Program-made: the position numbers and the translations under genes | Notes under the pieces: model-generated | Told to the model about the DNA's origin: nothing | Database searches by the model: none | Seen by the model: only the letters and a program-made list of their open reading frames with translations | Shown here: piece after piece, positions 2,442 through 43,216 of the stretch | Numbering within the stretch: the stretch's first letter is position 1 | How the letters are laid out: every line of letters starts with the position of its first letter | Assembly: GCA_009937445.1 (NCBI GenBank) | Contig: JAACFM010000010.1 | Coordinates: forward strand, 1 to 43,216 | DNA length: 43,216 nucleotides | Reading direction: 5' to 3' | Source of the DNA: Gammaproteobacteria bacterium | GTDB taxonomy: Bacteria > Pseudomonadota > Gammaproteobacteria > Steroidobacterales > Woeseiaceae

Positions 2442-2467
2442 TATGTTTCAGGATTAAGGCTTTCAAA

Positions 2468-6867
<4,400 letters not shown>

Positions 6868-6879
6868 GGAATAGTAAGA

Positions 6880-18735: not shown

Positions 18736-18753
18736 TAAAGACAGGTTTCAGTC

Positions 18754-21540: not shown

Positions 21541-21549
21541 GTTCGCGCC

Positions 21550-23238
21550 ATGGAGTTTCTCGACGCTCGCAGACTGACCGGGCCCAGCTTGATCTTTGAT
21601 GGGCCGGGTTCAATATTGGACGTCTCCTGCTCGGCAGAGGAGGCTGACCGTCTGATTCCGGTTTGGCAGTCCAATGTCGAACAGATGGTTTCCGAACTGG
21701 GTTGGGAGAAGCCAGAGATCGCTTCACGAAAACTGCTGGGAGGAGCGAGCATGGCCTTCTCCGCACCCATTGACGCCCTGTATGCGGCCTCCGCGGTCAA
21801 TGAGTGGGCCTGGGCGGCCAGCGCCCACCAACTCGGCTCGAATATCGAATGCCCGGACTATGCACAAACGGTCGAAGATATTCGTGCCGCGATTGCAGAA
21901 GAGGCCAATCCGCAGCTGATGCAACTCATTGACGACGCGAGACATCATGGCAAGACATTGCTGTGGGATGACGATGAGGTATCTGTTGGCCTTGGCAGAG
22001 GTGCGAAAACATGGCCCGTTCGTGAAGTTCCCCACGAGTTGGACTGGGACAGTCACCATGACGTGCCTATTGGTTTGGTAACCGGGACCAATGGGAAGAC
22101 GACCACCGTTCGATTGGCGACGCATATTGTCCGCGCCCACGGTTTGAATGTCGGATTGAGTTCGACCGACTGGATTGCAGTGAATGATCGTGTCATCGAA
22201 AGGGGTGACTGGTCCGGGCCCGGAGGCGCCCGTGCGGTGCTGCGTGAGCAGGATGTGGACGTTGCTATTCTCGAATCTGCGCGCGGCGGTTTGTTGCGGC
22301 GCGGTTTAGGCGTCGACCGTGCGAACGCAGCGCTGATAACCAACATTGCTGAAGATCATCTGGGCGATTTCGGCTCGCAGAATCTTGATGAGTTACTCAA
22401 CATCAAGTGGATTCTCAGCAGGGCCGTGCGAGAGTCGGGCACACTTATTCTGAATGCGGACGACCATTTGTTGCGCGGCAAAGCGCCCGAATTCGACGGG
22501 ACGCTCGTGTGGTTCAGTCTTGACGCGCACAATGATCTCATCAAGTCGGCTGTCGACACTGGCGACCTCTGTTTTTTCCTGGAAGGCGATGTGCTTTGCA
22601 TGGCCGAAGCTGGAGGTAAGGAACGCATTTGTCTTGCCAGCGAAATCCCCATCACGATGGATGGTGCTGCGCGGCACAACATCAGCAATTCACTTGCGGC
22701 AGCGGCGTTGACCTTTTGCCTTGGAATGCCGCTGGACGCCATTGCAACGGGACTGAAAACGATGGTGCAGGATGAGAATCCTGGCCGCTGCAATATTCAC
22801 GATGTAGGCGACGTTAAGGTTCTAATCGACTTCGCACACAACCCGGCTGCGATGAACGCCCTGTTTGATATGGCGACCGCAATTCCAGCACACCGGCGCG
22901 CGCTTTGCTTCGGACAGGCAGGTGATCGGCCGGACGCCCTGATCCGCGAAATGACTCGTGATGCCTCGGCTATCGGATTGGATCAGGTCATGATTTCCGA
23001 GCTCGCGGCCTATCATCGAGGTCGGGAACACGGCGACGTTTTTGCAGTTATCAGCGATGAGTTGCAGCAGTGCGGTATGAGCGCATCTCAGATCGGACAT
23101 CACGAAGAGGAGATAGAGTCGTTTATGGCGGCTCTGGATTGGGCGCAGCCCGGCGATCTCGTCATCATGTTGGCATTAAGCGGTGCCGCGCCGATTCAGG
23201 AACGGCTCAGGGAGCTCGGCGCAGTACAAAGTCGGTAA
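21550..23238 (+). CDS. CphA-related Mur ligase without ATP-grasp domain
   Basis: 562 residues. A divergent N-terminal region (about 1-165; DARRLTGPSLIFDGPG recalls the RGPN opening of CphA) leads straight into a Mur-ligase domain with P-loop T178-GTNGKTTT, ESARGGLLRRGLG (CphA: ETARGGILRSGLG), NADDHLLRG and FAHNPAAMNAL. The complete ATP-grasp half of CphA is missing. So it should activate a carboxyl with ATP and couple an amine, but cannot build the Asp backbone in the known way. It lies directly behind cphA. Its last 32 bases overlap the end of the convergent hydrolase gene. The exact substrate is unknown. Confidence 0.85.
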   Translation: MEFLDARRLTGPSLIFDGPGSILDVSCSAEEADRLIPVWQSNVEQMVSELGWEKPEIASRKLLGGASMAFSAPIDALYAASAVNEWAWAASAHQLGSNIECPDYAQTVEDIRAAIAEEANPQLMQLIDDARHHGKTLLWDDDEVSVGLGRGAKTWPVREVPHELDWDSHHDVPIGLVTGTNGKTTTVRLATHIVRAHGLNVGLSSTDWIAVNDRVIERGDWSGPGGARAVLREQDVDVAILESARGGLLRRGLGVDRANAALITNIAEDHLGDFGSQNLDELLNIKWILSRAVRESGTLILNADDHLLRGKAPEFDGTLVWFSLDAHNDLIKSAVDTGDLCFFLEGDVLCMAEAGGKERICLASEIPITMDGAARHNISNSLAAAALTFCLGMPLDAIATGLKTMVQDENPGRCNIHDVGDVKVLIDFAHNPAAMNALFDMATAIPAHRRALCFGQAGDRPDALIREMTRDASAIGLDQVMISELAAYHRGREHGDVFAVISDELQQCGMSASQIGHHEEEIESFMAALDWAQPGDLVIMLALSGAAPIQERLRELGAVQSR

Positions 23239-28467: not shown

Positions 28468-29756
28468 TGGTCGACTCGGAATCTGCAGTTCTTAGTCAGG
28501 GGGCGCGCCGATATGCGATGGTGATTCTCGCCATCGTCTACATGTTCAATTTTGTCGACCGACAAATTCTCGCGATCCTGCTGCCGCAGATCCGCGACGA
28601 GTTCGGAACCAGCGATGCTTATTTGGGGTTCCTGTCGGGGACGGCGTTTGCACTTTTTTACGTCACTCTGGGTATACCAATAGCGCAGTATGCTGACCGT
28701 TGTAATCGCCGCAATCTGATAGCGGCCTCGGTCGCACTTTGGAGCGCGATGACGGCCGTTTCGGGACTTGCTGCGAATATCTGGCACCTGACCGCAGCCC
28801 GTATCGGCGTCGGCATTGGTGAAGCTGGCTGCAGTCCTCCTGCCCACTCAATGATCGCTGACTATTTTCCACCCGAAAAACGCTCGACGGCGATGGGCTT
28901 TTATACCTTGGGCATATCGGCGGGCATCATGACTGCCTATCTTGCGGGTGGCTGGGTTGCTCAGAACATTGGTTGGCGGGAAGCATTCTTTGTCGTGGGA
29001 ATTCCCGGACTGCTGCTCGCCGCGATCGTACGGTTCACGGTAAAAGAGCCACAACGTGGTGCCTCGGAGGGCAGGACGGCCAGTGGCAGGACAGCTCAGC
29101 TGACCGAGGTATTGCGGTTTCTTGCCTCCCGCCGGTCTTTCATCCATATGGCAACCGCGGCGGGTCTGTCGACGTTCGTCGGTTATTCAGTGATCGGCTT
29201 TCTACCCAGTTTCATGGTGCGCAGCTTCGATATGGAGTTGGCGCAACTGGGCGTCTGGTTGGGCCTCATCCTCGGCATTTCGGGTGGCGCAGGTTTCTTT
29301 TTCGGGGGCTATTTTGCCGACCGCATTGGTCGAGGGAGTCACCGGAACGCGCTGAATTTTATCGCGCTGGTCATTCTGCTATCGAGCAGTCTTCTCGTGA
29401 TGATGTTCCTGGCGAAGAACTCAGTCACGGCTTTGCTGCTGTTCATCGTGCCGGCGGCTACGATGAACGTCTATCTTGCGCCTGTGCTGTCTCAGGCTCA
29501 AAGCCTTGTGGCATTGCGGATGCGCGCGACGACATCCGCACTGATTTTATTCATTATCAACGTGATCGGTCTGGCCTTCGGGCCGCTTCTGACCGGCATG
29601 CTCAGCGATTTTCTGGAGCCGCGGTTCGCCGAAGAGTCGATGCGCTATAGCTTGTTGACCGTCACCTGCGTGATCCTGCCGCTCGCTGTTTGGCACTACT
29701 ATTGTGCGGGCAAGTGGATCGATGCTGATCTCGCCCGGGCAGCCGAAAAAGACTAG
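28467..29756 (+). CDS. Major facilitator superfamily transporter (Spinster-like)
   Basis: 429 residues from GTG 28467, overlapping the ggt stop (TAGTG). About 12 membrane helices follow, starting AMVILAIVYMFNFVDRQILAILLP. The MFS loop signature YADRCNRRNLI follows helix 2 and FADRIGRGSHRNAL lies in the second half. RIGVGIGEAGCSPPAHSMIADYF is typical of the Spinster-type MFS branch, which carries lipids, amines or organic acids. Substrate unknown; amino acids or amines released by the neighbouring enzymes are a possibility. The stop shares CTAG with the convergent glutamine synthetase-like gene. Confidence 0.88.
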   Translation: MVDSESAVLSQGARRYAMVILAIVYMFNFVDRQILAILLPQIRDEFGTSDAYLGFLSGTAFALFYVTLGIPIAQYADRCNRRNLIAASVALWSAMTAVSGLAANIWHLTAARIGVGIGEAGCSPPAHSMIADYFPPEKRSTAMGFYTLGISAGIMTAYLAGGWVAQNIGWREAFFVVGIPGLLLAAIVRFTVKEPQRGASEGRTASGRTAQLTEVLRFLASRRSFIHMATAAGLSTFVGYSVIGFLPSFMVRSFDMELAQLGVWLGLILGISGGAGFFFGGYFADRIGRGSHRNALNFIALVILLSSSLLVMMFLAKNSVTALLLFIVPAATMNVYLAPVLSQAQSLVALRMRATTSALILFIINVIGLAFGPLLTGMLSDFLEPRFAEESMRYSLLTVTCVILPLAVWHYYCAGKWIDADLARAAEKD

Positions 29757-31138
29757 ACCGCTCGCAAGTACCAGTCGAAGTCCAGCTGACTGATGACATT
29801 ATGAAACTTGCGCTCTTCGGCTCGTCGATTCATCGCGTAGTACTTGCAATAGTCCTTGCCAAGATACTCGGGCAGCACTTTGCTGCGAGCGAACTTGTCG
29901 ATCGCGGTTTCCCAGCGATTCGGGATCTTCAGTTTCGGCGTTATGTGAGCGCCTTGTTCGACCATGACTCCAGGGTCGATCTTGTTCTTGAGGCCGTGGT
30001 GTACACCGGCGACTATGCTTGCCATGACAAGATAGGGATTCGCATCCGCACCCGATGTGCGATGTTCAAAGCGAAGGTTACTGGCATCTGATTCCGGAAT
30101 TCGTACCGCAACAACTCGATGATTTACGCCCCAGTTCGGCTCTACCGGTGCAAACATCTCGGGACGCAAGCGACGATAGGAATTGGCGTTCGGCGCGCCA
30201 ATCAAGGTTGCTTCGGGCATGATCTTCAGCAGTCCTCCGACCGCATGACGCAACCGGGCGGAGAAGGGCGGCACAGCCATCTTGTCCTTGCCCTGCGAGA
30301 AATAATTCTGACCCTGCCGGTCGACAATACTCATGTGAACGTGCAGGCCGCATCCCGCATCCTCTTCGAACGGTTTCGCCATGAAACAGGCGATGAATCC
30401 GTGCTTGCGCGCGGCCGCTTTGATAATGCGCTTCAGGAGCACGGCGTGGTCGCAAGCGAGCACCGCGTCATCAACGTGGTTCAGATTAATTTCAAACTGG
30501 CCCGCTGCATACTCTGAAATAGCCGCTTCAGCAGGAACGTTTTGAATTTTGCACCACTCGTAAACATCGTCCAGGAATTCCTCGACCTCGAACAGATCAT
30601 CGGGATGGTAGACCTGGGTGCCCGGCTGCGCGCGATCCGTTCCCGGTATTTTCGGTGCGCCGATCCTGACATCGGGAGCGTTCGCGTCGAGCAGGTAAAA
30701 TTCAAGTTCTGTCGCAACGACGGGTTTGAGTCCCATTTTTTGCAAGGGCTTTAGTGCATTTTCCAACACCGTTCGAGGGTCGCCGAAAAAATTCGAGCCG
30801 TCCTCTGCCTGCACCCGAAAAAAGGCTTGTCCCATCGGCTTGCGTGCCCATGGCACCGGCACGATCGAGCCTGGAACGAGTGCTGCCGGTAGGTCCGGGT
30901 CACCGTCGTCCTCGCCGTAGGGGATGCCTGAAACAGTCTCGCCCAATGTGGTCAGCAGCGTCGCGCCTGCGCAAAAAATGAAGCCGCCGTGACAACTTTT
31001 TTCGAAATCGTTCGGCCGAATTCGCTTGCCTTTCAGGATTCCGTTGAGATCAGGTATCAGAAGTTCCAGAGATTCAAAGTCACCGTGTTTTTTTTGTATC
31101 GCCCTGATTTCAGTGATTAAAGGGTTTCGTTTGGCCAT
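29753..31138 (-). CDS. Gamma-glutamyl-amine ligase (PuuA-like glutamine synthetase), copy 1
   Basis: 461 residues, with the GS catalytic fold lacking the features of ammonia-assimilating GlnA. PVVATELEFYLLDAN holds metal-binding glutamates, AAGQFEINLNHVDD and CGLHVHMSIVDRQGQNYF are the catalytic beta-strands, and VRIPESDASNLRFEHRTSGADANPYL binds ATP/glutamate. This matches PuuA/PauA-type enzymes, which join glutamate to putrescine or other amines using ATP. It stands alone on the minus strand, divergent from the IclR regulator gene. The exact amine is not readable from sequence. Confidence 0.9.
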   Translation of the reverse strand: MAKRNPLITEIRAIQKKHGDFESLELLIPDLNGILKGKRIRPNDFEKSCHGGFIFCAGATLLTTLGETVSGIPYGEDDGDPDLPAALVPGSIVPVPWARKPMGQAFFRVQAEDGSNFFGDPRTVLENALKPLQKMGLKPVVATELEFYLLDANAPDVRIGAPKIPGTDRAQPGTQVYHPDDLFEVEEFLDDVYEWCKIQNVPAEAAISEYAAGQFEINLNHVDDAVLACDHAVLLKRIIKAAARKHGFIACFMAKPFEEDAGCGLHVHMSIVDRQGQNYFSQGKDKMAVPPFSARLRHAVGGLLKIMPEATLIGAPNANSYRRLRPEMFAPVEPNWGVNHRVVAVRIPESDASNLRFEHRTSGADANPYLVMASIVAGVHHGLKNKIDPGVMVEQGAHITPKLKIPNRWETAIDKFARSKVLPEYLGKDYCKYYAMNRRAEERKFHNVISQLDFDWYLRAV

Positions 31139-31211
31139 TTCTCAATCTCATTGTCGCGGATACAGGGAGAATCAACGATTTTCAGCGTGGCTGCAATAGG
31201 GAAGGAAATGC

Positions 31212-31244
31212 TATATTGTGAAATCCGAGTTCATTATATGGAAT
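31212..31244 (+). promoter_or_regulatory. iclR-type promoter and candidate operator
   Basis: An extended -10, TG-C-TATATT (TATATT 31212-31217), lies before the IclR gene. Downstream, 31229-31244 (GTTCATTATATGGAAT) matches the perfect palindrome GTTCCATATATGGAAC at 13 of 16 positions. That is a typical shape for IclR-family sites and suggests autoregulation. Confidence 0.4.
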
Positions 31245-31248
31245 AACA

Positions 31249-32004
31249 ATGCGCGATCAAGCACCTCCGCAGGGGGCTCAGGCAGCTCTAAGAGCCATTC
31301 GGCTGCTGAAGCTGTTCACAGCACAAGTGCCGGAATTGCGACTGGCCGAGATCAGTAGCCTTTCAGGTTTGAACAAGACCACGACCCACCGATTGCTGCA
31401 GGCTCTCCACAGTGAAGAACTTCTCGATCGCAATCCTGGCACAGGAGCGTATCGCCTGGGACCCGGGATGATGGCGTTAGGCGTGCAGGCTTTATCGAGT
31501 AATGATCTTCGCCTGCGAGCGCGGCCGCTACTGAGAAAACTGGCTGATGAAACGGGCGAGACCGCGACGCTCGAGGTGCCGATCGAAGACACGATGCTGA
31601 TTCTGGATGAGGTCACAAGTAAGCATTTTCTCGGCGCATCGGGCAACGTCGGTACACGCTGGCCTATTCATGCGACATCGACCGGCAAGGTTCTAATCGC
31701 GTTTGAACGACGTGGCCCGGCTCGACTGGGTCCTGAGCTGGCCTCCTTGACACCGAAGACGATTACGCAGTTTGATAAGCTCGAGAAAGAGCTTGGCGAT
31801 ATCCGGCGCCGTGGATTTGCCGAGGTGGTTGACGAACTCGAGGATGGGCTGTCAGGAGTGGCTGCAGTGGTCAGGGGCGGAATGGGCGAAGTACTGGGCG
31901 CGTTGTCTATCTGCGGGCCGAGCCAGCGGATGTCCGAAAACCGCCGGGCTCAACTTGGCCTGACTTTGTGCACGGTCGCGACACATTTACAGCCGCGGTA
32001 CTGA
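31249..32004 (+). CDS. IclR-family transcriptional regulator
   Basis: 251 residues. A winged helix-turn-helix (about 10-75; RAIRLLKLFTAQ, LAEISSLSGLNKTTTHRLLQALHS) precedes the IclR effector domain (about 90-248; RPLLRKLADETGETATLEV, RWPIHATSTGKVLIA, GFAEVVDELEDGLSGVAAVV). It is the first gene of a forward run with the NhaC-like carrier (19 bases on), the PuuD-like hydrolase and the second PuuA-like ligase. It probably controls these, and perhaps the divergent ligase, in response to an amine or degradation intermediate. Confidence 0.93.
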   Translation: MRDQAPPQGAQAALRAIRLLKLFTAQVPELRLAEISSLSGLNKTTTHRLLQALHSEELLDRNPGTGAYRLGPGMMALGVQALSSNDLRLRARPLLRKLADETGETATLEVPIEDTMLILDEVTSKHFLGASGNVGTRWPIHATSTGKVLIAFERRGPARLGPELASLTPKTITQFDKLEKELGDIRRRGFAEVVDELEDGLSGVAAVVRGGMGEVLGALSICGPSQRMSENRRAQLGLTLCTVATHLQPRY

Positions 32005-32023
32005 TCCGTTTTGCCGTGATAAG

Positions 32024-33943
32024 ATGCGCATCGATAGTCAGCGCAGGAATAATCATATTAATACTCGCAAGCTGGTCCGTAGAAACCTGTTAATCACCAC
32101 CTCTGTCGTCGGATTTCTGGCAGCGCTCGTTTCATTTTCGGCTGATGCTATTGAAGTTGAGACACCGGCAGTTACTCTGCAGGGCGTCCCGATGGACTAT
32201 GTGGTTACCGGCGCGGAGTCTGGTCAAGCGGTACAGGTCACTATCGGCGAAATGGCATTCACAGCGAATGCTGACCAGGGCGGGAGCGCTTTGTTTGCCG
32301 ATGTCACTATCGAAGAGTCCGGTGAAAATAGCCTGGTTGCGTCGGCAGGAGAGGCTTCGGCAGAAGTGTCTCTGCGTGTCATTCCGGGATGGGTGTCGAT
32401 CCTGCCGGCGGTAGTGGCGATCGTCATTGCGCTCACACTTCGCAATGTTATCCCGGCATTGCTACTGGGTTTGTGGCTCGGAGCGACAGCCTTGCAGTCA
32501 TTCACGCTCAAGGGTGCCGGACTCGGGCTACTGGACAGTTTCCAGGTATTTGTCCGGGGTGCGCTCGCTGATTCAGACCGTGCGTCCATCGTCCTGTTTA
32601 CGATGATGATCGGCGGCATGGTCGGGATCATTACTCGTAACGGCGGGATGGCCAGTATTGTCTTGTCTATTGTTAGCCGAGCCAAAACGGCCATTGGTGG
32701 CCAGGTGGCAGTCTGGCTAATGGGACTGATGATTTTCTTTGACGACTACAGCAATACGCTGGTGGTCGGCAATACGGCCCGCTCCCTGACAGACCACCTG
32801 AAAATATCGCGGGAAAAACTCGCTTATATTGTCGATTCAACTGCGGCGCCGGTCGCGTGTATTGCGTTGATAACAACCTGGATCGGTTACCAGATCGGAC
32901 TGATTGATCAAAGTCTCGGGACTATCGAAGAACTCGCCGATATGGCGGCCTATACGGTTTTCATCCAGTCGATACCTTACAGTTTCTACCCGATTCTCGC
33001 GATTATGTTTGTGTTGATGATATCAGCCACCGGTCTTGATTTTGGCCCGATGTACAAAGCAGAGGTACGCGCCCGGAAAGGCACAGTGAAACCGGTATCG
33101 GCAGAGGTGCTTCCGGCCCTCGAGGGCGAGGAACTGATTCCCAAGGAAAATATTCCGTTGCGTGCATTCAACGCGTTCATACCAATAATCGTGATGATCG
33201 TTGCGCTGGGCGCGAGCCTGATATTACTTGGCGAAGGCGATTCTCTGACACAGATTCTCGAAACGACTGAACCCTACAAGGCGATGATGTATTCGTCGTT
33301 TGTCGGTGTATTGGTTGCCGCATCGTTAACCATCGGCCAGGGAATATTGTCTGTTCATGAAACGATTGACGCATGGTACGGCGGTCTGAGAGCGACGCTC
33401 TTTGGAATGATTATCCTGGTGTTGGCCTGGTCGTTGTCGGACGTTACAGCAGCGCTGAATACGGCCTCGTTCCTGGTGACAATGCTGGCCGGCTCACTGC
33501 CCGTTGCATTTATTCCTGCTATCGCATTCATTCTTGCCGCGATCACCGCATTTACGACCGGTACCAGTTGGGGAACGATGGCTATCCTGATGCCGCTGGT
33601 CATACCGTTGGCTTGGGCGGTTATGACCGTTGCTGGTATTGCGGACCCAAGCGGCATGCACATCTTGTATTCATCTGTGGCCTGCGTTCTGGCAGGTGCG
33701 GTTTGGGGAGACCATTGTTCGCCGATCTCGGATACGACGGTGTTGTCGTCGATAGCCAGCGGCTGCAACCACATTGAGCATGTGCGAACTCAGCTTCCTT
33801 ATGCTTTGCTGGTTGGCATCGCGGCATTACTGATTGGGACAATCCCGGGCGGTTTCGGCTTGCACCCGGCGATCTCCATACTCACAGGAATAGCGGTTCT
33901 GTATGCAGTATTGAGAACCATTGGACGACGCGCTGAGGCCTGA
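32024..33943 (+). CDS. NhaC-like Na+/H+ antiporter or exchanger with a secreted N-terminal domain
   Basis: 639 residues. A signal-anchor segment (about 22-42) precedes a hydrophilic, beta-rich domain (about 43-122), and only then comes the NhaC-type transporter (about 123-635; about 12 helices). The transporter contains FFDDYSNTLVVGNTARSLTD, STAAPVACIALITTWIGYQ and WGDHCSPISDTTVLSSIASGC, which are characteristic of the NhaC family. Some relatives exchange amino acids or amines rather than sodium. The extra N-terminal domain would sit in the periplasm. It is encoded 6 bases before the PuuD-like gene in a catabolic operon, which favours uptake or exchange of the pathway's substrate. Confidence 0.87.
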   Translation: MRIDSQRRNNHINTRKLVRRNLLITTSVVGFLAALVSFSADAIEVETPAVTLQGVPMDYVVTGAESGQAVQVTIGEMAFTANADQGGSALFADVTIEESGENSLVASAGEASAEVSLRVIPGWVSILPAVVAIVIALTLRNVIPALLLGLWLGATALQSFTLKGAGLGLLDSFQVFVRGALADSDRASIVLFTMMIGGMVGIITRNGGMASIVLSIVSRAKTAIGGQVAVWLMGLMIFFDDYSNTLVVGNTARSLTDHLKISREKLAYIVDSTAAPVACIALITTWIGYQIGLIDQSLGTIEELADMAAYTVFIQSIPYSFYPILAIMFVLMISATGLDFGPMYKAEVRARKGTVKPVSAEVLPALEGEELIPKENIPLRAFNAFIPIIVMIVALGASLILLGEGDSLTQILETTEPYKAMMYSSFVGVLVAASLTIGQGILSVHETIDAWYGGLRATLFGMIILVLAWSLSDVTAALNTASFLVTMLAGSLPVAFIPAIAFILAAITAFTTGTSWGTMAILMPLVIPLAWAVMTVAGIADPSGMHILYSSVACVLAGAVWGDHCSPISDTTVLSSIASGCNHIEHVRTQLPYALLVGIAALLIGTIPGGFGLHPAISILTGIAVLYAVLRTIGRRAEA

Positions 33944-33949
33944 ACACGA

Positions 33950-34708
33950 ATGGACAGAAAACCAATCATTGCGGTTCCGGCAGATCGACGTGTTCTACAT
34001 CCGCACCCGTCGCACCTCAGTGGCGAAAAATACATTAAAGCGCTGCTCAAGGGAGCCAACGCGCTGCCAATAATTGTGCCGTCACTGGCTGACTATATCG
34101 GCGTGGATGAAATACTCGAGTGCGTTGACGGCATCATGCTGACCGGCAGCTATTCCAATATCGAGCCACGACACTACGGCGATGATGACGCCGATCACGT
34201 CGGCGACGCTGATCCGCATAGAGATGCGATGGCGCTGCCGCTTGCGCTGCGTGCATTGGAGACTGGCGTTCCGTTGCTTGCCATTTGCCGCGGGCATCAG
34301 GAACTTAATGTCGCGTTGGGCGGGACTCTGCATCGAGATGTTGCTGCGGTGCCTGGCTACCACAGCCACCTGGAGAACAAGAGCGATCCACTGGACGTTC
34401 AATACGGTCCCTCGCATCCGGTGTCTTTGATGGAAGGGGGGCTGTTGCGGCCACTGGCCGGGTCGGATTCGGTCATGGTGAATTCGCTGCATGGGCAGGG
34501 AATCGCGCAGCTCGCTGACGACGTAACGGTTGAGGCTGTGGCCGACGACGGTCTGATCGAAGCATTCAGGGTAGACACTGCAGCGGGCTTTAATCTGTCC
34601 GTGCAATGGCACCCCGAGTGGCGAGTAAGCGAAAACGAATTTTCTATGGCAATTTTTGGGGCATTTGGCGATGCGTGCAGAGCTCGCGCGGCCAAACGAC
34701 AGGTGTAA
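33950..34708 (+). CDS. PuuD-like gamma-glutamyl-amine hydrolase (class I glutamine amidotransferase fold)
   Basis: 252 residues. Nucleophile C113 in ICRGHQELNVALGG, H221 and E223 in QWHPEW complete the triad. DGIMLTGSYSNIEPRHYG is the oxyanion-side motif of the gamma-glutamyl-GABA hydrolase family. The enzyme removes the gamma-glutamyl group from gamma-glutamyl-GABA or similar products at the end of a glutamylated polyamine route. It sits between the NhaC-like carrier and the second PuuA-like ligase, one base before the latter's GTG. Specificity is inferred from family and context. Confidence 0.9.
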   Translation: MDRKPIIAVPADRRVLHPHPSHLSGEKYIKALLKGANALPIIVPSLADYIGVDEILECVDGIMLTGSYSNIEPRHYGDDDADHVGDADPHRDAMALPLALRALETGVPLLAICRGHQELNVALGGTLHRDVAAVPGYHSHLENKSDPLDVQYGPSHPVSLMEGGLLRPLAGSDSVMVNSLHGQGIAQLADDVTVEAVADDGLIEAFRVDTAAGFNLSVQWHPEWRVSENEFSMAIFGAFGDACRARAAKRQV

Positions 34709-34709
34709 T

Positions 34710-36041
34710 GTGAGTAAAGACGAAATATTTCAACCGTGGTTACAGGAACGTCGGATCGAAGACGTCGAGGCGTTTGTTCCCGATATGGCCGGCTCAGCAC
34801 GTGGAAAAGTTGTACCCGCAGACAAGTTTGGTTCCGGCCAGATGAAGATGCCCGAAGCAATTTTTTCGCAGACCATCTCGGGCGACTATGTAGCGGATTC
34901 GGCCAATGTAGAAGATCGCGATATGTGGCTGGTGCCGGACTCGAAAACCTTGCGCCCCGTGCCGTGGGCGACGGATCCAACAGCGTCGGTCTTTCTGGAC
35001 TGCTATCACCGCGACGGATCGTTGGTCGCGAAGTCACCCCGTGCTGTTCTGCGCAGTATTCTTGCAAAGTACGAGGCGCGTGGATGGGAGCCAGTCGTCG
35101 CTCCGGAAGTCGAGTTTTACCTGCTGAGTCCGCATTCGGACCCAAATGCGGAAGCCGAGCCGCCAGAGGGCCGCCTGGGCTGGACCGAAGGCGCGCGTCA
35201 GCCGTACAGCATCGATACGATGAATGACTTCGAACCATTCATAAACACCGTTTACAGCTACTGTGAAGCACAGGGTATCCATATCGATACCTTGTCGCAG
35301 GAGATGGGACCAGCGCAATTTGAAATCAATTTCCTGCACGGCAACGCGATTGATCTTGCTGATCAGGTATTTCTGTTCAAACGAACAATCCGTGAAGCAG
35401 CCATCGAACATGAGATGCACGCGACGTTTCTGGCAAAACCGATGGCTGACGATGCGGGCAGTGCGTTACATATCCACCAAAGCATTATCGACAAAGACGG
35501 CAAGAATATTTTCTCCAATGATGACGGTTCGCCGAGTGATTTATTTTTCGGCTATCTCGGCGGCTTGCAGCGTTACATGCCAGAGGCAATGTTGGTCTTT
35601 GCGCCATACGTCAACTCGTTCCGCCGCTTCATGAATCCCGATTCTTCACCGGTCAACCTGGCCTGGGCGATTGATAATCGCACCGTTGGTCTGCGTGTTC
35701 CCGACTCTCCGCCAGATGCGCGTCGCGTCGAGAATCGCCTCGCGGGTTCTGATGTAAACCCGTATCTGGCTTTGGCGGGATCGCTGGCTTGCGGTTACCT
35801 CGGCATGCTTGAGGGACTGAAGCCGACTGACGCGACTGAGGGCAGCGCTTACGGCGGTGACTTTGATTTGCATCGGCACATTTTTTCAGCGATCGATGCG
35901 ATGCGTGAGAGCGAAGCGATGCGCAAGATGCTTGGCGATGAATTTGTTACGCTCTATACCGCGCTCAAAACCGACGAGCACAGGGAATTTCAAGAGATCA
36001 TCACGCCCTATGAGCGTGAAATTCTGATGTTCAACGTCTGA
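34710..36041 (+). CDS. Gamma-glutamyl-amine ligase (PuuA-like glutamine synthetase), copy 2
   Basis: 443 residues from GTG 34710 (AGGTG upstream, one base after the previous stop). The GS catalytic core is present: PVVAPEVEFYLLSPH, MGPAQFEINFLHGNAID, SALHIHQSIIDKDGKNIF, LRVPDSPPDARRVENRLAGSDVNPYL, and an N-terminal beta-grasp part with FVPDMAGSARGKVVP. It is clearly related to, but diverged from, the copy at 29753-31138, so the two probably glutamylate different amines. Its place behind the PuuD-like hydrolase and before the aminotransferase and ureohydrolase fits a putrescine, agmatine or related amine route. Confidence 0.91.
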   Translation: MSKDEIFQPWLQERRIEDVEAFVPDMAGSARGKVVPADKFGSGQMKMPEAIFSQTISGDYVADSANVEDRDMWLVPDSKTLRPVPWATDPTASVFLDCYHRDGSLVAKSPRAVLRSILAKYEARGWEPVVAPEVEFYLLSPHSDPNAEAEPPEGRLGWTEGARQPYSIDTMNDFEPFINTVYSYCEAQGIHIDTLSQEMGPAQFEINFLHGNAIDLADQVFLFKRTIREAAIEHEMHATFLAKPMADDAGSALHIHQSIIDKDGKNIFSNDDGSPSDLFFGYLGGLQRYMPEAMLVFAPYVNSFRRFMNPDSSPVNLAWAIDNRTVGLRVPDSPPDARRVENRLAGSDVNPYLALAGSLACGYLGMLEGLKPTDATEGSAYGGDFDLHRHIFSAIDAMRESEAMRKMLGDEFVTLYTALKTDEHREFQEIITPYEREILMFNV

Positions 36042-36150
36042 GAGGGCAGTCGTTTCAGTATGTGGACTGAGACTGACGCGCCAGTGTGCCGCCGTTAGAA
36101 TTCTTGAAAATTGATTATTGAAGGGCTTTTGGTGCCCAAACGAGGTTGAG

Positions 36151-37524
36151 ATGTCCGCAATTGAAAAGCGTTCACGGCAAGAATGGCAGGAACTGGACAA
36201 GAACCATCATCTGCATCCCTTTACTGACCACAAAGAACTGTATGAGCAACGTTCACGCATCATCACGCGTGCAGATGGCGTCTACATATTTGATGCAGAT
36301 GGCAACAAGATACTGGATGGAATGTCCGGGCTGTGGTGCGTAAATGCGGGCTATGGCCGCCAGGAACTTATCGACGCGGCGACTGAACAAATGAAGGAAT
36401 TGCCGTATTACAACAATTTCTTCCAGTGTGCCCACCCTCCGGTTATCGAGCTGTCTGCAATGCTGCAAGAGGTCAGTCAGCCGCAATTCAATCGGGTATT
36501 TTTCGCTGGATCCGGTTCCGAATCCAACGACACGATCGTTCGAATGGTGCGCACTTACTGGGACCTGATGGGACAGCCTGAACGACACACGATCATCAGT
36601 CGAGACAACGCCTATCACGGTTCGACAGTAGCGGCAGCGAGTCTGGGCGGCATGAAGGCCATGCACAAGCAGAGTGGATTGCCTATTCCGGGCATCGTTC
36701 ATGTCGATCAGCCTTACTGGTTTGGCAGTGATCAGTCACTGTCGCCCGATGAATTTGGACTAGCCGCTGCGCGAACAATTGAGGCGAAGATAAAGGAAGT
36801 GGGTGCCGACAAGGTTGCTGCATTCATCGGTGAGCCTGTTCAGGGCGCCGGCGGCGTCATTGTTCCGCCCGATTCCTACTGGCCTGAAGTTCAGAGGATT
36901 TGTGACGAGTACGGCATTCTGTTGATTTCGGACGAAGTCATTACGGGTTTTGGCCGACTGGGTGAATGGTTCGGTGCCGACTACTTTTCAACGCGTCCTG
37001 ATTTCATGCCGTTTGCAAAAGGCGTCACGTCAGGCTACCTGCCACTGGGTGGTGTGATGGTCAGCGACCGGGTTGCCGACGTGCTTATCGACAAGGCCGG
37101 CGAGTTTTTCCACGGCTATACCTATTCCGGACATCCTGTGGCGTGTGCTGTAGCGATTGCGAACCTGAAACTGATCCAGCGTGATCAGCTGGTGGAGCGA
37201 ATCCATGACGATATCGGTCCCTACCTGCAACAGAAATGGGCTGCGCTTGGCGACCACCCGTTGGTCGGCGACACGCGAATGGTCGGCTTAATGGGTGCAT
37301 TCGAACTCGTAAAGAACAAGAGCCCGTTGGAGCGTTTCGATGACAAGCAGGGTGTGGGTGGAATATGTCGCGACCACCTTATTGCTAATGGCCTTTGTAT
37401 GCGCGCGGTTGGCAATACGATTATATGCGCGCCACCGTTCATCCTCTCGCACGCTGAAGCAGACGAGCTGATCGAAACAGCATGGAAGGCACTCGACCTG
37501 ACGCAGAAAACGGTCTCGGCTTAA
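36151..37524 (+). CDS. Class III (omega-amino acid/polyamine:pyruvate) aminotransferase
   Basis: 457 residues from ATG 36151 (GAGG ribosome site). It is a PLP enzyme of the SpuC/omega-amino-acid transaminase group. Visible motifs are GMSGLWCVNAGYGRQELIDA, FFAGSGSESNDTIVRM, ISRDNAYHGSTVAAASLGG, ISDEVITGFGRLGEWFGAD and PLP lysine K290 in FAKGVTSGYLPLGG. It should move the terminal amine of putrescine, GABA, beta-alanine or a guanidino-amine to pyruvate, giving an aldehyde. The aldehyde dehydrogenase that would follow is not in the window. There are 109 bases of gap upstream and 5 bases to the next gene. Confidence 0.92.
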   Translation: MSAIEKRSRQEWQELDKNHHLHPFTDHKELYEQRSRIITRADGVYIFDADGNKILDGMSGLWCVNAGYGRQELIDAATEQMKELPYYNNFFQCAHPPVIELSAMLQEVSQPQFNRVFFAGSGSESNDTIVRMVRTYWDLMGQPERHTIISRDNAYHGSTVAAASLGGMKAMHKQSGLPIPGIVHVDQPYWFGSDQSLSPDEFGLAAARTIEAKIKEVGADKVAAFIGEPVQGAGGVIVPPDSYWPEVQRICDEYGILLISDEVITGFGRLGEWFGADYFSTRPDFMPFAKGVTSGYLPLGGVMVSDRVADVLIDKAGEFFHGYTYSGHPVACAVAIANLKLIQRDQLVERIHDDIGPYLQQKWAALGDHPLVGDTRMVGLMGAFELVKNKSPLERFDDKQGVGGICRDHLIANGLCMRAVGNTIICAPPFILSHAEADELIETAWKALDLTQKTVSA

Positions 37525-37529
37525 GGCTT

Positions 37530-38480
37530 GTGGATAAATTCAGCAATGATCACGCAATAACCCGTAAGGAGCTGCGCGGTACAACGCCCGAACCCACCTA
37601 CGGTGGCGTAACATCATTCATGCGTCGCAAGTACTCCAAGGACATGAGTGGCGTTGATGTCGCGGTCCTGGGCGTACCGTTTGATACGGCGACAACCAAT
37701 CGATCCGGAACACGGTTGGGCCCGCGCGCTATTCGAAATGCGTCAACCATCATGGCGTGGGAACGACCTTACGGCATGGAGTTCGATCCATTTGATCGTC
37801 TGGCGGTTGTTGATGCGGGTGATGCGCACTTCGATTTTGGTCGCCCGGAAAAAGTGCCTGATGAAATCGAAAACGCAGCCTTCAATTTGATTTCCCAAGG
37901 TCCGGGCCTACTTGCTCTGGGTGGGGATCACTTTATTTCCTACCCGCTGATCAAGGCTCACGTCAAAAAGTATGGCGGTCCGATTTCGATTCTGCACTTC
38001 GATGCACACACTGATACATGGCAAGACGAAAACGATCGTATTGATCACGGCACTATGTTCTGGTGGGCGGCGAAGCAGGGACTCATTAATCCGGCGACAT
38101 CGGTTCAGGTCGGCATTCGGACTCAAAACTCAGATACGCTGGGTTTCAATATCATTGATGCTCGGTCCGTACATTCGCAATCGATTGAGGCGACCGCAGC
38201 CGCGGTGCGAAAGCACCTCGGTGATACACCCGTTTACCTGACGTTCGATATTGATTGCCTTGATCCAAGTTACGCGCCAGGGACTGGAACACCCGTGTGC
38301 GGCGGGTTGACGAGCCATCAGGCAATATCAATTCTGCGTGGCCTGCAGGGTATCAATGTGATCGGTATGGACGTTGTTGAAGTCGCACCAGCCTACGATG
38401 TTGGCGAGATTACCGCGTTGGCGGCCAGTCACCTGGCGATGGAAATGTTGTATCTGTACGCCAATCGTCCTGCGGTCTGA
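37530..38480 (+). CDS. Agmatinase-family ureohydrolase
   Basis: 316 residues from GTG 37530 (TAAGG 7 bases upstream, at the aminotransferase stop). A longer frame from 37482 would overlap that gene and has no family match. The six dimanganese ligands are all visible: H134 (GGDH), D158, H160 and D162 (HFDAHTD), and D240 and D242 (FDIDCLDPSYAPGTGTP). The enzyme hydrolyses a guanidino group to urea plus amine. Agmatine, 4-guanidinobutyrate, another guanidino acid or even guanidine itself are possible substrates for this family. Context of amine ligases and a transaminase fits agmatine or guanidinobutyrate. Confidence 0.9.
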   Translation: MDKFSNDHAITRKELRGTTPEPTYGGVTSFMRRKYSKDMSGVDVAVLGVPFDTATTNRSGTRLGPRAIRNASTIMAWERPYGMEFDPFDRLAVVDAGDAHFDFGRPEKVPDEIENAAFNLISQGPGLLALGGDHFISYPLIKAHVKKYGGPISILHFDAHTDTWQDENDRIDHGTMFWWAAKQGLINPATSVQVGIRTQNSDTLGFNIIDARSVHSQSIEATAAAVRKHLGDTPVYLTFDIDCLDPSYAPGTGTPVCGGLTSHQAISILRGLQGINVIGMDVVEVAPAYDVGEITALAASHLAMEMLYLYANRPAV

Positions 38481-38489
38481 GGGAACGAC

Positions 38490-38524
38490 AATGCCGCTAT
38501 GCTGTGCTTGACCTTGGCGGCATT
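38490..38524. repeat. 8-bp inverted repeat between convergent genes
   Basis: AATGCCGC (38490-38497) and GCGGCATT (38517-38524) form a perfect stem around 19 bases, spanning the stop of the TetR gene and 10 bases after the ureohydrolase stop. There is no T tract on either side, so it is at best a weak bidirectional terminator. Confidence 0.35.
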
Positions 38525-39171
38525 TCGCCTGGCAAGAACAAGCGAACGATCATGTCGGAAATTTCGTCCAGTGTTTCCGGGTCGTCAATGTCGATTCCAC
38601 TTGAGCCTTTCAACTCGTTTCCGAGCGTCAGCAAGCCGCCCGATGACAACCGGATCATGTTGAATAGGATCGCAGGATTGCCCGGCGCGGCAACGCCCAG
38701 TTTCTGCAATTTTTCGAGCATTTCAAACGTTGTTTCGAAAAGTGGTTTCAGGTGGGTTTCGATCAACCAGTCCAATCGCGGATTCGGATAGCTCGCTTCC
38801 TGAATCATCACTTTGTGCAGGGCCGGATGGTTCCTGGCGTACTCGACATAAATACGAATCATCGTGGACATCCGTTTTTTTGGATCCATCTGACGATTCT
38901 CTGCGAGAGAGTTTGCCAATGCATGGGTAAATGCACCGAAGATATGATCGGCGGCCGCATGCCATAGTTTCTCTTTGTTCTTGAAGTGGTAAGTAATCAG
39001 CGGATGGTGAACACCAGCGCGCTCGGCGATATCCCGGGTTGAGGTTCCTTTGAAGCCGTTTTCAGAGAACGCTTCGATGGCGGCGTCGAGGAGTTTTTGT
39101 TGGGTGACAATACTTCGTCGCTGCTGTTTGCGCTCAGGTTGGACCGCTTCCAAGATAGTTTCTTGCGACAC
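38497..39171 (-). CDS. TetR-family transcriptional regulator
   Basis: 224 residues from GTG 39171 (MSQETILEA). The helix-turn-helix reads KLLDAAIEAFSENGFKGTSTRD with RAGVHHPLITYHFKNKEKLW, and the C-terminal ligand domain contains HPALHKVMIQEASYPNPRLDWL. A basic N-terminal extension (PERKQQRRS) precedes it. It is convergent with the amine-catabolism operon, so it may regulate it or an unrelated target. The promoter at 39201-39230 has its -35 inside an inverted-repeat arm, which hints at autoregulation. Confidence 0.9.
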   Translation of the reverse strand: MSQETILEAVQPERKQQRRSIVTQQKLLDAAIEAFSENGFKGTSTRDIAERAGVHHPLITYHFKNKEKLWHAAADHIFGAFTHALANSLAENRQMDPKKRMSTMIRIYVEYARNHPALHKVMIQEASYPNPRLDWLIETHLKPLFETTFEMLEKLQKLGVAAPGNPAILFNMIRLSSGGLLTLGNELKGSSGIDIDDPETLDEISDMIVRLFLPGEMPPRSSTA

Positions 39172-39271: not shown

Positions 39272-42049
39272 CTAATCAAGCGCGAACATCATCCGTACAC
39301 CGGCTCTCTTGTTAATGATCAAACCGTTTTCGACGACGGGTTCGAATTCCCATTTCTCAACCGCCTTAACAGCGGAGTTGTTAAAGATATCGCCCGGTTC
39401 CGAATTGCGCACCTCGACGTCCGCCACAGTGCCTTGTGTTGTCACGGTGAAAACAACATCAACCCAGCCAGAGATGTTGCGACGCTCTGCAGATCGCGGG
39501 TATTTTGGCGCAACGTATTTGATGCGATTCAATGCACTGACGGCTGTTAGCACAGCATCGGTCCTGGTCTCGGTTGCAACGTCTTGAGCCACAGTGGTGG
39601 GCGGCTCAGCGGTGGTTTCATTTGCTACCGGATTGGCGGCATTCGCAGCTGCGGCCTGGCGTTCTGTCTCCAGACGCTCCGCTTCGGCCTGTTGTTCTGC
39701 CTCCAGACGGTCGGCGCTGGCCTGCCGCGCGATCTCATCGCGACGCTGTTGCTCGGCAATGGCAGCGCGTGTGGCAGCCAATGCTGCCGTCGCCGCCGCA
39801 ACCTCACTGTTTTCCCGGTCAAGCGCGCGGGCATTCGCCAAGGTGTCTTCTGCCAGTCGCAAATCGCCATTGTCGATTTCGGTACGTGCCTGGAAGGCAA
39901 GCTTGCCGGCGATGACGCTCAGTCCCTGGCGTGCAGCGGTATTGTCTGCATCGTTGGACAAAACGAGTTCGTAATAGTATCGAGCATTGTCATTTGAAGG
40001 GCTAAGCAGGTCTCCCGAATCCAGGCGGGCGGCCGCCTTCGTGAGCACGTCATCCGTTTGTTGCGCACTGCGTGCGGTACTCAATTCTGCGTCAACAGCG
40101 TCTATTTCGCTGGTGTCGGCAACAGTGAGCCCACGAGCAGCACTCAGAGCCTGGGCGGCATCTTCGAAGCGCGTCTCGCGAATGGCGACTCGCGCCTGGT
40201 CAATTCTGGTGCGCAACTGCATCTGCGACATCTGCGCATGCAGGAACGGTAATCGATCATTTTGCGGGTCAACTGTTGCGACTCGCAGCACTGCGGCCTC
40301 AGTATCATCCAGTCGGGACTCGAGCATTGCTGATTCGGCCATTGCGAGTGCTTGCTCAATCGCCGCATCCAGCTCGCCTGCAATCAACGAATTGTCCGGA
40401 TCGGCATCCATTGCCGCGGCGAACAACTCAATCGCATTGCTGCCGGCGGGGTTGAATAGTTGGCCGGCGTCACGGGCGAGTCGCGCCTGTGCAATCAATG
40501 CTCCCACCTGGGCAGTATCCGCAACAGCTTGCATGGGTTCAGGCGTAACATCAGCATCTGCTGATGAGGGCGCTCCGATCTGTTCTACCAGCGGCTGCGA
40601 AACTGGTTCACCAGAACCGCTCATCAGCCAGAAGACTGCACTCGCAACCACCATCAGACCAGCAGCACCGATGCCCAGGGCTTTCGGGTTGCTTAGTAAT
40701 GAACCACCGGATGTGGAACTTGCTGAAGACGGGGCCGTGCGCACTTTTTCGATCGGTTGACCTTTAACCACCGGCTCCGCTCTCTCAGGAGCGTCCTCCA
40801 CTGTTGGATTTCTCGATTTCTTATCCGCGGAGAATTTCTTGCCAACCGAGCTAACCAGTCCGGTTATCGTCTCCGTAAAACTGGCATCGTCTTCACCAAA
40901 TGCATCGGCAAGACCGCTATTAATTGGTGAATCGTCAGCGGGACCGTTTGCAGATCCGAGCGGCGGATCCGTCGGAACAGGCGCAACCGACGTGGCCGGT
41001 TTTGTCTCCGGTTTTGGCGTTGGCGTTGGCTTCGGCTTCGGCTTCGGTGCCGGTGCAGACTTCGGCGCTAATCTGGCAACCGTCGCCGCGTTGGGAGCGA
41101 CACCTTTGATCTTAAACGCGGCATCCGGTGCCTCGAGATGGTGTTTGACTGACGCCTCGACAGCCAGCCGGGCTCGACCCGGTGATACAGGTTTCAACAG
41201 GAATCGATAAACTTTTCCACGGTTGATCAGGTCCATCAGCATTTCGCCGTCGTCGCGGCGACCGGCAACGATGGCAACCAACCTTGCTGAATTTTTGCGC
41301 AAATGCTGTGTTAGTTGTTCGATTTTCCCAACGACCATCGCCGCGTCAACGACCGCGACGCCGATCTTGTGTTTACGGATAGCTTCATCGGCCTGCGCGA
41401 GCGTGTTTGCGTAGTAAATCTTGTGCATTCCGCGGGAGGAGTCTTTTATCGTCTCGAGAAATTCCAGGTCCTTCGTAAATACGAGTACGTCGACGGAGCG
41501 AGAACCTAGGCTGGCTGCTGCGGCTACTTTCTTGGGATCGAGTACAGGCATGCGACCGGTACCGTCACTGATAATTGTGGAACCGTTATCCGACGTTTCC
41601 ATAATGATATGTTCGGCCGGTTGGTCGACGCCTGCCGTGGTGTCGTTCGCTGATTCTGCGAGAGCTATTAACCGCATTTGACGCGTGGCGTTATCGACGA
41701 GCTTTAACAATCCTTCGCCTGTGACGGCGCCGCTGACAACCTGAAACACCTCTTCGTCACTGACAAGCGCTTGAATATCTCTGGTCTTGGTGCCTGCGAG
41801 TAGAATGCCGATTGTATCCGGAGAGCGTTTCTTGGCTTCACGCAGTGCGTCCAAGCCGCTCATGCCCGGCAGGTCGTGGGCGGTAATGATGACGTTGATC
41901 GGCGTATCGACGAGCGTATTAAGGGCTTCGCTTCCGCTGGTGGCACAATGCACCGTATAACGCTCGTTGAACCCTGAACTGAGGCTGTCCAGAGTAGTTT
42001 GCTCGCTGTGCAGCAACAATACTTGAGTCTTGAATTGGTCCAACGGCAC
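39272..42049 (-). CDS. Receiver-receiver-membrane-repeat-TonB fusion protein
   Basis: 925 residues from GTG 42049 (GGAGG 7 bases upstream). Receiver-like domain 1 (about 8-125) has A57 where the phospho-acceptor Asp should be and no acidic pocket. Receiver-like domain 2 (about 186-305) keeps D235 (VAVVDAAM) and K286 (FLLKPVS). A Pro/Lys linker (329-362) and a charged region follow, then one membrane helix (about 457-476), helical TPR-like repeats (about 500-760), a Glu/Gln/Arg coiled coil (about 765-825) and a C-terminal TonB domain (about 845-925; YPRSAERRNISGWVDVVF, VEKWEFEP). Topology implies cytoplasmic receivers and a periplasmic TonB end. No ExbB/ExbD is near. I know of no named family with this order. 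Confidence 0.85.
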   Translation of the reverse strand: MPLDQFKTQVLLLHSEQTTLDSLSSGFNERYTVHCATSGSEALNTLVDTPINVIITAHDLPGMSGLDALREAKKRSPDTIGILLAGTKTRDIQALVSDEEVFQVVSGAVTGEGLLKLVDNATRQMRLIALAESANDTTAGVDQPAEHIIMETSDNGSTIISDGTGRMPVLDPKKVAAAASLGSRSVDVLVFTKDLEFLETIKDSSRGMHKIYYANTLAQADEAIRKHKIGVAVVDAAMVVGKIEQLTQHLRKNSARLVAIVAGRRDDGEMLMDLINRGKVYRFLLKPVSPGRARLAVEASVKHHLEAPDAAFKIKGVAPNAATVARLAPKSAPAPKPKPKPTPTPKPETKPATSVAPVPTDPPLGSANGPADDSPINSGLADAFGEDDASFTETITGLVSSVGKKFSADKKSRNPTVEDAPERAEPVVKGQPIEKVRTAPSSASSTSGGSLLSNPKALGIGAAGLMVVASAVFWLMSGSGEPVSQPLVEQIGAPSSADADVTPEPMQAVADTAQVGALIAQARLARDAGQLFNPAGSNAIELFAAAMDADPDNSLIAGELDAAIEQALAMAESAMLESRLDDTEAAVLRVATVDPQNDRLPFLHAQMSQMQLRTRIDQARVAIRETRFEDAAQALSAARGLTVADTSEIDAVDAELSTARSAQQTDDVLTKAAARLDSGDLLSPSNDNARYYYELVLSNDADNTAARQGLSVIAGKLAFQARTEIDNGDLRLAEDTLANARALDRENSEVAAATAALAATRAAIAEQQRRDEIARQASADRLEAEQQAEAERLETERQAAAANAANPVANETTAEPPTTVAQDVATETRTDAVLTAVSALNRIKYVAPKYPRSAERRNISGWVDVVFTVTTQGTVADVEVRNSEPGDIFNNSAVKAVEKWEFEPVVENGLIINKRAGVRMMFALD
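41016..41045. repeat. Hexamer repeat coding a Pro/Lys-Thr linker
   Basis: Five tandem hexamers of GGCGTT or GGCTTC type inside the TonB-fusion gene encode alternating proline with lysine or threonine. A low-complexity coding repeat of this kind can change length by slippage. Confidence 0.7.
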
Positions 42050-42162
42050 TTCGCTTCCTCCAGAATCTTATGTCGAATCGCTCGCGCGGTCCTTTCGTCA
42101 GGAGGAGTATAGCCATGGGTGTCGGCCGGATTGCCGTCGTACCACGGCAGATCGTTGAATCT

Positions 42163-42289: not shown

Positions 42290-43216
42290 TTAGTCGCTGT
42301 TACTGCGCCTGGCGATCTCTGTTTTCAGCGCAGAAATTGCATCGTCAAGCGACATAATCTCTTGTTTTTTGGAGCCCAGGCGCCGGATCGCGACCGTGCG
42401 ATTTTCAAGCTCTCGCTGACCAACTGCAAACTGCACGGGCACCTTTGCGACACTGTGTTCGCGTACTTTGTACGATATTTTCTCGTTGCGCAGATCGGAT
42501 TCAGCGCGCAAGCCGTTCGCCCGGAGGCTGGCTTCAATCTCAGTCGCGTATTCATCAGCATCGGACGTAATCGTCAATACCTTGACCTGTACCGGCGCGA
42601 GCCACAAAGGAAGGTTGCCGGCGTGATGCTCTATGAGAATTCCCATAAAGCGCTCGAGCGACCCAAATATTGCTCTGTGCAGCATGACAGGCAGGTGTTT
42701 CTCGCCATCTTCGCCAATGTAGGAGGCGCCCAGTCGCCCGGGCATATTCAAGTCAACCTGCAGAGTGCCACACTGCCAGTCCCGACCAATGGCGTCACGC
42801 AAAACGAACTCCAGCTTTGGTCCGTAGAAGGCACCTTCCCCCGGATTGTGGGTGTAATCGAGGCCGCCGACCTCAAGCGCCTTGAGCAAAGCCTGCTCGG
42901 CCTGGTCCCATACAGCATCTTCTCCGACGCGGACTTCTGGCCGGTCCGCGAATTTGATACGTACGTCGTCAAACCCAAAACCGCGGTAGATGTCTAGAAT
43001 GAGTTTGCAGACCGCTATCGACTCATCAGTAATCTGTTCCGGCGTACAGAAGATGTGCGCATCGTCCTGAGTGAATGCACGCACGCGCATCATGCCGTGA
43101 AGGGCGCCCGATGGTTCGTAGCGATGGCACTTGCCAAACTCGGCAAGACGCACGGGCAGGTCGCGGTAACTCGTGATGCCCTGCTTGAAGACCTGCACGT
43201 GACCCGGGCAATTCAT
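42290..43216 (-). CDS. thrS: Threonyl-tRNA synthetase, C-terminal part (partial)
   Basis: The last 308 residues of ThrS, which charges tRNA-Thr. The gene continues past the right edge; the first visible residues, MNCPGH, are an internal motif, not the start. Zinc ligands of the class II catalytic core are present: Cys of MNCPGH, His of QDDAHIF and His of [10 protein letters not shown]. Motif 2 ([19 protein letters not shown]) and motif 3 ([13 protein letters not shown]) follow, then the anticodon-binding domain (about 215-305; [26 protein letters not shown]). Unusually, infC does not follow it. Confidence 0.97.

Follow-up and report, generated by a model that had tools for sequence, protein, structure and literature searches.

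Two receiver-like domains joined through one predicted membrane helix to a TonB C-terminal domain in Woeseiaceae

Introduction

In the usual view, a two-component system acts at its end on transcription, an enzyme or a motor switch. A gene near the end of a 43,216-nucleotide stretch of Woeseiaceae DNA (contig JAACFM010000010.1 of assembly GCA_009937445.1, positions 1 to 43,216; here called the window) raises the question whether signalling domains inside the cell may instead be wired to a TonB C-terminal domain (TonB_C) in the periplasm. Its product of 925 residues joins two receiver-like domains to TonB_C through a linker, a single membrane helix, a helical arm and a coil, and the gene is referred to below as the fused gene. 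A first-pass annotation, made from the letters alone, had read the frame at the right coordinates (39272..42049) and with the right length, though without naming the strand, which is minus. It had also proposed that a signal inside the cell controls a periplasmic TonB-type contact.

The fused gene is kept as a single gene across Woeseiaceae. The reading that we favour, with our confidence evenly divided, is that it encodes a trans-envelope signalling or tethering protein, in which pseudo-receivers serve as a docking platform that controls the TonB_C arm. Such a signalling or tethering role is most likely when set against that of a second energised TonB. A conserved operon of kinase, receiver and TonB_C genes, together with this phospho-dead-looking fused relative, suggests a line from the cytoplasm through the periplasm to the outer membrane. 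Such a line would make sense of long proteins that probably go under the plain label of TonB family, and it would give a testable handle on the Woeseiales, a widespread marine-sediment group. As given in PMC7082342, Woeseiales account for 1-22% of the 16S sequences retrieved.

Domain architecture and predicted folds

From a GTG start, the frame runs open on the minus strand for its full length, and plus-strand translation of the same interval meets many stops. Pfam, hydropathy and structure models agree on the order read in the first-pass annotation: two receivers, a Pro/Lys linker, a membrane helix, repeats, a coil and TonB. Hydropathy counts one membrane helix (around residues 455-476), and about 454 residues lie ahead of it, compared with the short cytoplasmic tail of ordinary TonB.

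The C-terminal domain is a true TonB_C by profile and by fold. Residues 847-922 match Pfam TonB_C (PF03544) with an E value of 1.2e-16, and the protein matches TIGR01352 at 4.7e-14. The AlphaFold2 model of residues 445-925 (pLDDT 86) comprises the membrane helix, helical repeats, a helix of 56 residues and TonB_C. The first fold match of this last domain is Pseudomonas aeruginosa TonB (6fip). The second is chain D of 6i97, from a FoxA complex, with 1.1 Å over 86 alignment columns and 35% identity.

The N-terminal half folds as receivers in the models, as had been claimed. Response_reg is matched by the whole protein at E 1e-11 and by residues 1-133 alone at E 6e-8, above the Pfam cut-off; receiver 2 alone reaches E 0.0004 and stays below it. 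AlphaFold2, run on residues 1-325 with 27 relatives, returned two receiver-like alpha/beta domains (pLDDT 68.9, pTM 0.44). The top solved Foldseek match of this half is the two-receiver protein PleD (E 4e-10), but superposition across both domains is poor (root-mean-square deviation of about 15 Å), so the domains match singly and not in their arrangement. The single receivers of HupR and of HD-type proteins superpose on one domain at about 2-3 Å, in agreement with the sequence profiles.

The repeat arm is modelled with a pLDDT above 90 over most of its length. The helical repeats of the first-pass annotation are thus found in the model, whereas their assignment to the TPR family is the weakest of the domain calls: Pfam TPR_19 scores at a sub-threshold E of 0.74, and by fold TPR proteins match weakly.

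Active sites of the two receivers

The two active sites were compared in an alignment of 54 rows, the window protein included, whose residue numbering is used here. Phosphorylation of a receiver draws on a set of an acid pair, an Asp, a Thr or Ser and a Lys, of which receiver 1 has none and receiver 2 only the Asp and the Lys. In receiver 1, the acid-pair positions are occupied by H14 and S15 in 54/54 rows, the phospho-site 57 is Ala in 52 rows (Val once, Thr once), position 85, the Thr/Ser site, is Ala in 53, and Lys is missing from its usual position. Receiver 2 keeps D235 and K286 in all 54 rows; its acid pair is lost (Thr or Ser at position 192; Lys, Gln or Arg at 193) and its Thr/Ser site, position 262, is Ala throughout. 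A57, D235 and K286 are therefore as the first-pass annotation gave them.

Judged by established knowledge of receivers, both domains appear to be pseudo-receivers, receiver 2 with slightly less certainty. D194, beside the lost acid pair of receiver 2, is kept in 27/27 sequences and leaves a residual metal site there conceivable. Phosphorylation of D235 as the input is unlikely, as the acid pair and the Thr/Ser are gone from this domain.

Even so, the receiver half is the better conserved part of the protein. Identity of 26 fused relatives to the window protein has a median of 74% over the receiver half and 50.5% over the arm half, which argues for strong constraint on the receiver part in spite of its phospho-dead appearance. 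Along the whole protein, variation in the alignment is lowest at residues 256-306, within receiver 2, where the conserved surface corresponds to the alpha4-beta5-alpha5 face. The linker (residues 309-450) shows low conservation.

Conservation and gene integrity

A strong match to the fused protein (E 3.6e-88 or better) was found in 56 of 60 genomes of the same genus, split in some genomes between two contigs or frames. The remaining genomes, G004, G011, G029 and G051, gave only E 3.8e-9 to 2.6e-7. The best match among 38 genomes of the same order outside the genus reached E 2.6e-26. A search of named genomes, with patterns derived from the window protein and hence directed at close relatives only, yielded 48 loci in bins labelled Woeseiaceae, Woeseia, Chromatiales, Gammaproteobacteria or Proteobacteria: 47 with the fused gene and one (L080) with a split operon described below. 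Receiver 1, receiver 2 and TonB_C stand in a single frame in 37 of these 48 loci. The remaining 11 comprise four loci cut by a contig end, the split operon, one locus (L067) without TonB_C by BLAST and five in which the gene is broken in two frames or its N-terminus is offset (L039, L059, L060, L065 and L078). Sequencing error or real decay may lie behind the broken and offset frames. A TGA near the start of the fused gene was seen in genome G001.

The 54 rows of the alignment were counted after removal of three frames that lack an N-terminal match and of frames shorter than 700 amino acids (aa). The three domains share one frame in 48 of those rows; five rows are cut by a locus end and one (L039) breaks before TonB_C. 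In a single-contig genome (4,059,891 bases), the gene order of the window recurs, with a thrS-like gene, the fused gene as a frame of 953 residues and a TetR-like gene. Merging of two genes by an assembly error, which the first-pass annotation had named among the things that would overturn its reading, is excluded by these rows and by the one-contig genome.

In the order-wide profile search, 36 of the 41 family genomes listed have a match, and the five that lack one measure 1.4 to 2.0 Mb. Water-column Woeseiaceae genomes are described in PMC12175321 as smaller (1.7 versus 3.1 Mb), with flagella and tad pili as a trait of the sediment bins. A part in life on surfaces or in sediment would be consistent with the absence of the fused gene from small genomes, which genome reduction alone explains equally well. 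Pieces of the fused gene also lie on two contig ends (L200 and L201) of G572, a genome from another family of the order, through transfer, misbinning or a wider distribution.

A three-gene paralogue and other relatives

A paralogous operon separates the parts that the fused gene joins. It consists, in this order, of a histidine kinase, gene A (an intact receiver followed by a pseudo-receiver) and gene B (a membrane helix, TPR and TonB_C). Gene A occurs in 12 of 62 genus genomes, all 12 of which also match the fused gene strongly. In these genomes and at L080, a histidine-kinase-like frame lies directly upstream of gene A and a frame resembling membrane helix-TPR-TonB_C downstream, with many of the upstream kinase frames cut by the locus end; at L172, the third gene matches over its C-terminal part only. 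Receiver 1 of gene A has the DD pair, the Asp, the Thr and the Lys in 13/13 sequences. Pfam finds HisKA and HATPase_c in the three kinases of the operon that were scanned, Response_reg (88 bits) in one gene A product and TonB_C (58 bits) in one gene B product.

Arms with other inputs were found more widely. Proteins with a single pseudo-receiver, a membrane helix, TPR and TonB_C occur outside the genus in G082 (two), G073, G097, G341, G240 and G353; their pseudo-receiver was recognised by BLAST and alignment and is missed by Pfam in the two that were scanned. G012 encodes a protein in which a Ser/Thr kinase takes this place (Pfam Pkinase and TonB_C), and further Ser/Thr kinase arms were read in G264 and, with no clear TPR part, in G074. 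At L158 (G082), the single-form gene follows frames that resemble, by eye, a membrane sensor kinase, CheY and CheX. A class-wide profile search matched 32 of 369 genomes at 1e-20, seven of them with a frame longer than 500 aa; the others resemble ordinary, shorter TonB.

A tree of receiver 2 was built from 31 rows: 18 fused forms (every third of the 54), six split and seven single. The split forms group together (100/100), as do the fused forms (90/92), in a tree with several long branches, some of them carrying single forms, and several open forks.

Two further relatives have neighbours of other kinds. L202 (G526) encodes a 707-aa single pseudo-receiver TPR-TonB_C protein near a frame that reads as an ExeA/GspA-like ATPase, and at L154 (G341) the relative's gene is, by eye, directly upstream of MoxR ATPase-, DUF58- and Bat-type vWA-like frames. 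Force transducers with vWA are discussed in PMC12204202.

Gene neighbourhood

The features of the fused gene and its two neighbours are collected in Table 1. A thrS counterpart lies upstream in 41 of the 48 named loci and a TetR counterpart downstream in 42; the two occur together in 36 loci, and in every case they share the strand of the fused gene. The first-pass annotation had suggested looking for ExbB/ExbD or receptor genes next to homologues, but the nearest conserved neighbours recognised in Woeseiaceae are thrS and the TetR gene. At L155 (G353) and L156 (G240), from another family, a thrS-like frame was read about 3 kb or less from the gene for the single pseudo-receiver TonB_C protein, with ExbD-like frames 3-4 kb further on; this arrangement may be old or due to chance.

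Table 1. Coordinates in the window of the fused gene, its parts and its neighbours
Feature	Position	Strand	Basis
Whole gene, 925 aa: pseudo-receiver 1, pseudo-receiver 2, linker, membrane helix, TPR-like arm, coil, TonB_C	39272..42049	-	Open frame, Pfam, 54-row alignment
GGAGG ribosome-binding-like site, 7 bases ahead of the GTG start	42057..42061	-	Sequence read directly
Putative pseudo-receiver 1, residues 7-125	41675..42031	-	Pfam, alignment, AlphaFold2 model
Putative pseudo-receiver 2, residues 184-308	41126..41500	-	Response_reg profile (below Pfam cut-off alone), alignment, fold
Linker, residues 309-450, Pro/Lys-rich, then acidic and Ser-rich, predicted cytoplasmic	40700..41125	-	Composition, low conservation
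Single membrane helix, residues 455-476	40622..40687	-	Hydropathy, model helix
Helical repeat arm, TPR-like, predicted periplasmic, residues 508-747	39809..40528	-	Model, weak TPR matches
Long single helix or coiled coil (56 residues), residues 748-803	39641..39808	-	Model
TonB C-terminal domain, residues 838-925	39275..39538	-	PF03544, fold match
thrS C-terminal part, upstream neighbour, cut by the window end	42290..43216	-	Pfam
TetR-family regulator, downstream neighbour	38497..39171	-	Pfam TetR_N

Discussion

In the reading that we favour, the pseudo-receivers would dock a cytoplasmic partner or a small ligand, and the docking surface may be the alpha4-beta5-alpha5 face of receiver 2. The state of the pseudo-receivers would pass through the membrane helix to the arm, which would then change when or where TonB_C grips an outer-membrane protein. 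A similar arm may have been wired to active signalling in relatives, either by an operon with a kinase and an intact receiver or by a Ser/Thr kinase in the same chain, and the Woeseiaceae fusion would be the variant that has given up phosphorylation as its input. An outward-moving signal is favoured mainly on account of the kinase operon, and the direction may be inside-out as put here or the reverse. The earlier idea of a signal inside the cell that controls a periplasmic TonB contact receives indirect support from this operon and from the arms with other inputs, whereas phosphorylation of D235, which it had suggested testing, is unlikely. That receiver modules, active in the operon and dead in the fusion, directly drive the TonB arm, so that outer-membrane contacts change without transcription and without an ExbB/ExbD motor, is a tentative extension that we lean against more than towards.

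Several points weigh against the favoured reading. No gene A was found in 50 of the 62 genus genomes, among them the window's own, which has no match at 1e-30, and thrS and TetR are the only conserved neighbours recognised beside the fused gene, neither of them a signalling gene. The soluble gene A product could reach the TonB_C protein only at the short tail or the membrane helix of the latter, and adjacency of the genes is no proof of contact. The model of the N-terminal half is moderately confident, with an unreliable relative placement of the two receivers. The cytoplasmic location of the N-terminal part and the periplasmic location of the arm are predicted, and partners on either side, for the receivers and for TonB_C, are hypothetical.

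The same anatomy would suit an outside-in sensor, in which the TonB_C arm feels a partner in the outer membrane or cell wall and the pseudo-receivers recruit or release a cytoplasmic partner; the most conserved surface indeed lies in the receiver part. The split operon, with a membrane histidine kinase and an intact receiver as its probable input, fits a flow towards the arm better, and we consider the sensor unlikely.

A role as an additional energised TonB, driven by ExbB/ExbD to open TonB-dependent receptors and merely regulated or localised by its pseudo-receivers, is doubtful as well. TonB_C scores 66.2 bits here versus 65.5 in the ordinary TonB of the genome, its fold matches TonB in complex with an outer-membrane receptor, and the window genome has 7 MotA_ExbB, 8 ExbD and 27 Plug matches. 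All the MotA_ExbB and ExbD matches, however, are on contigs other than that of the window. Proximity to exbB and exbD is usual for TonB, but not obligatory. An ordinary TonB of 215 aa is encoded on another contig, next to matches to ExbB and ExbD, and the genome has more ExbB/ExbD sets elsewhere. A His-containing, motor-binding SHLS motif is described in PMC12204202; none of the 54 rows has a His in the core of the membrane helix (one His lies outside it), a test that is not decisive, as inspection by eye finds no such His in the exbBD-linked TonB of the genome either. Each of the six small genomes examined that lack the fused gene (G004, G011, G051, G515, G582 and G587) has 4 to 15 Plug matches, which argues that a cell can have TonB-dependent receptors without the fused protein. 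Five of these six keep a TonB_C frame of 202-206 aa; none was found in G587, which is 84% complete.

Pseudo-receivers of the TadZ/CpaE type are localisation domains, and those of the fused protein might anchor it at a pole or machine while the arm forms a static tether to peptidoglycan or the outer membrane; this scaffold is quite improbable, as its TadZ-like_ARD (E 0.16) and CpaE2 (E 0.72) matches are sub-threshold, HupR, HD-type and PleD-type receivers match better, and the nearest conserved neighbours are thrS and TetR.

Comparison with known systems

Among described proteins, GltG (PglI) of Myxococcus xanthus has a similar build, in which a single chain runs from a cytoplasmic signalling domain through one membrane helix to a C-terminal TonB_C. 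Its signalling domain is FHA; the 925-aa protein has no Pfam match to FHA and carries receivers instead, and its score with the NCBIfam AgmX/PglI tail model, 20.5 bits, falls short of the cut-off of 40. GltG is encoded among gliding genes, whereas the fused gene adjoins thrS and TetR rather than AglRQS/Glt genes, on a contig without a MotA/ExbB match. Interaction of GltG with the AglR motor in a two-hybrid test is reported in PMC3169522.

The TonB of Escherichia coli and P. aeruginosa shares the TonB_C domain by profile and fold, but has a Pro-rich spacer in place of the TPR-like arm; the fused protein further differs in its long part before the helix, in lacking the SHLS His and in having no exbBD alongside.

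PleD resembles the fused protein in its tandem receivers, the second of which is degenerate. Gene A of the split operon, with its first receiver intact, is the form closest to the PleD type. The output of PleD is GGDEF, whereas that of the fused protein is a membrane-anchored TonB arm; receiver 1 also appears dead in the latter, and the two-domain arrangements do not superpose.

ShkA likewise has a degenerate receiver with a conserved beta5-alpha5 surface, within a hybrid kinase, and this pseudo-receiver binds cyclic di-GMP (c-di-GMP) (PMC7010744). The conserved surface of receiver 2 is suggestive of such binding, which would be an idea only; an informal comparison of residue spacing with ShkA, made by eye, gave no convincing match, and ShkA is not named among the 27 chains in the profile match list.

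No publication on a fusion of a receiver with a TonB C-terminal domain was found in a literature search of partial coverage that took in few subscription papers. The main text of the 2025 study of TolA/TonB evolution (PMC12204202) does not contain 'response regulator', 'kinase', 'cytoplasmic domain' or 'receiver'. A trans-envelope TonB_C protein with a cytoplasmic signalling domain is thus known from GltG; versions with a receiver, a pseudo-receiver or a kinase operon seem undescribed.

Other genes in the window

Elsewhere in the window, a TonB-dependent receptor (2435-4678, +) was identified by its beta-barrel (E 4e-50) and Plug (E 2.5e-28) domains. It is followed by a cytochrome c-cytochrome d1 protein (4663-6864) and an alginate-export-like porin (6868-8106). 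A cluster at 29753-38480 looks to be concerned with nitrogen or polyamines. Pfam places in it two glutamine-synthetase-like genes (29756-31141, -; 34656-36038, +) and a peptidase C26 amidotransferase (33950-34705); an IclR-like regulator, an antiporter-like gene, an aminotransferase and an agmatinase-like gene were assigned by reading only. Two adjoining Mur-ligase-type genes at 18739-23235 (+), the first with a cyanophycin-synthetase N-terminal domain, are probably a pair for cyanophycin synthesis.

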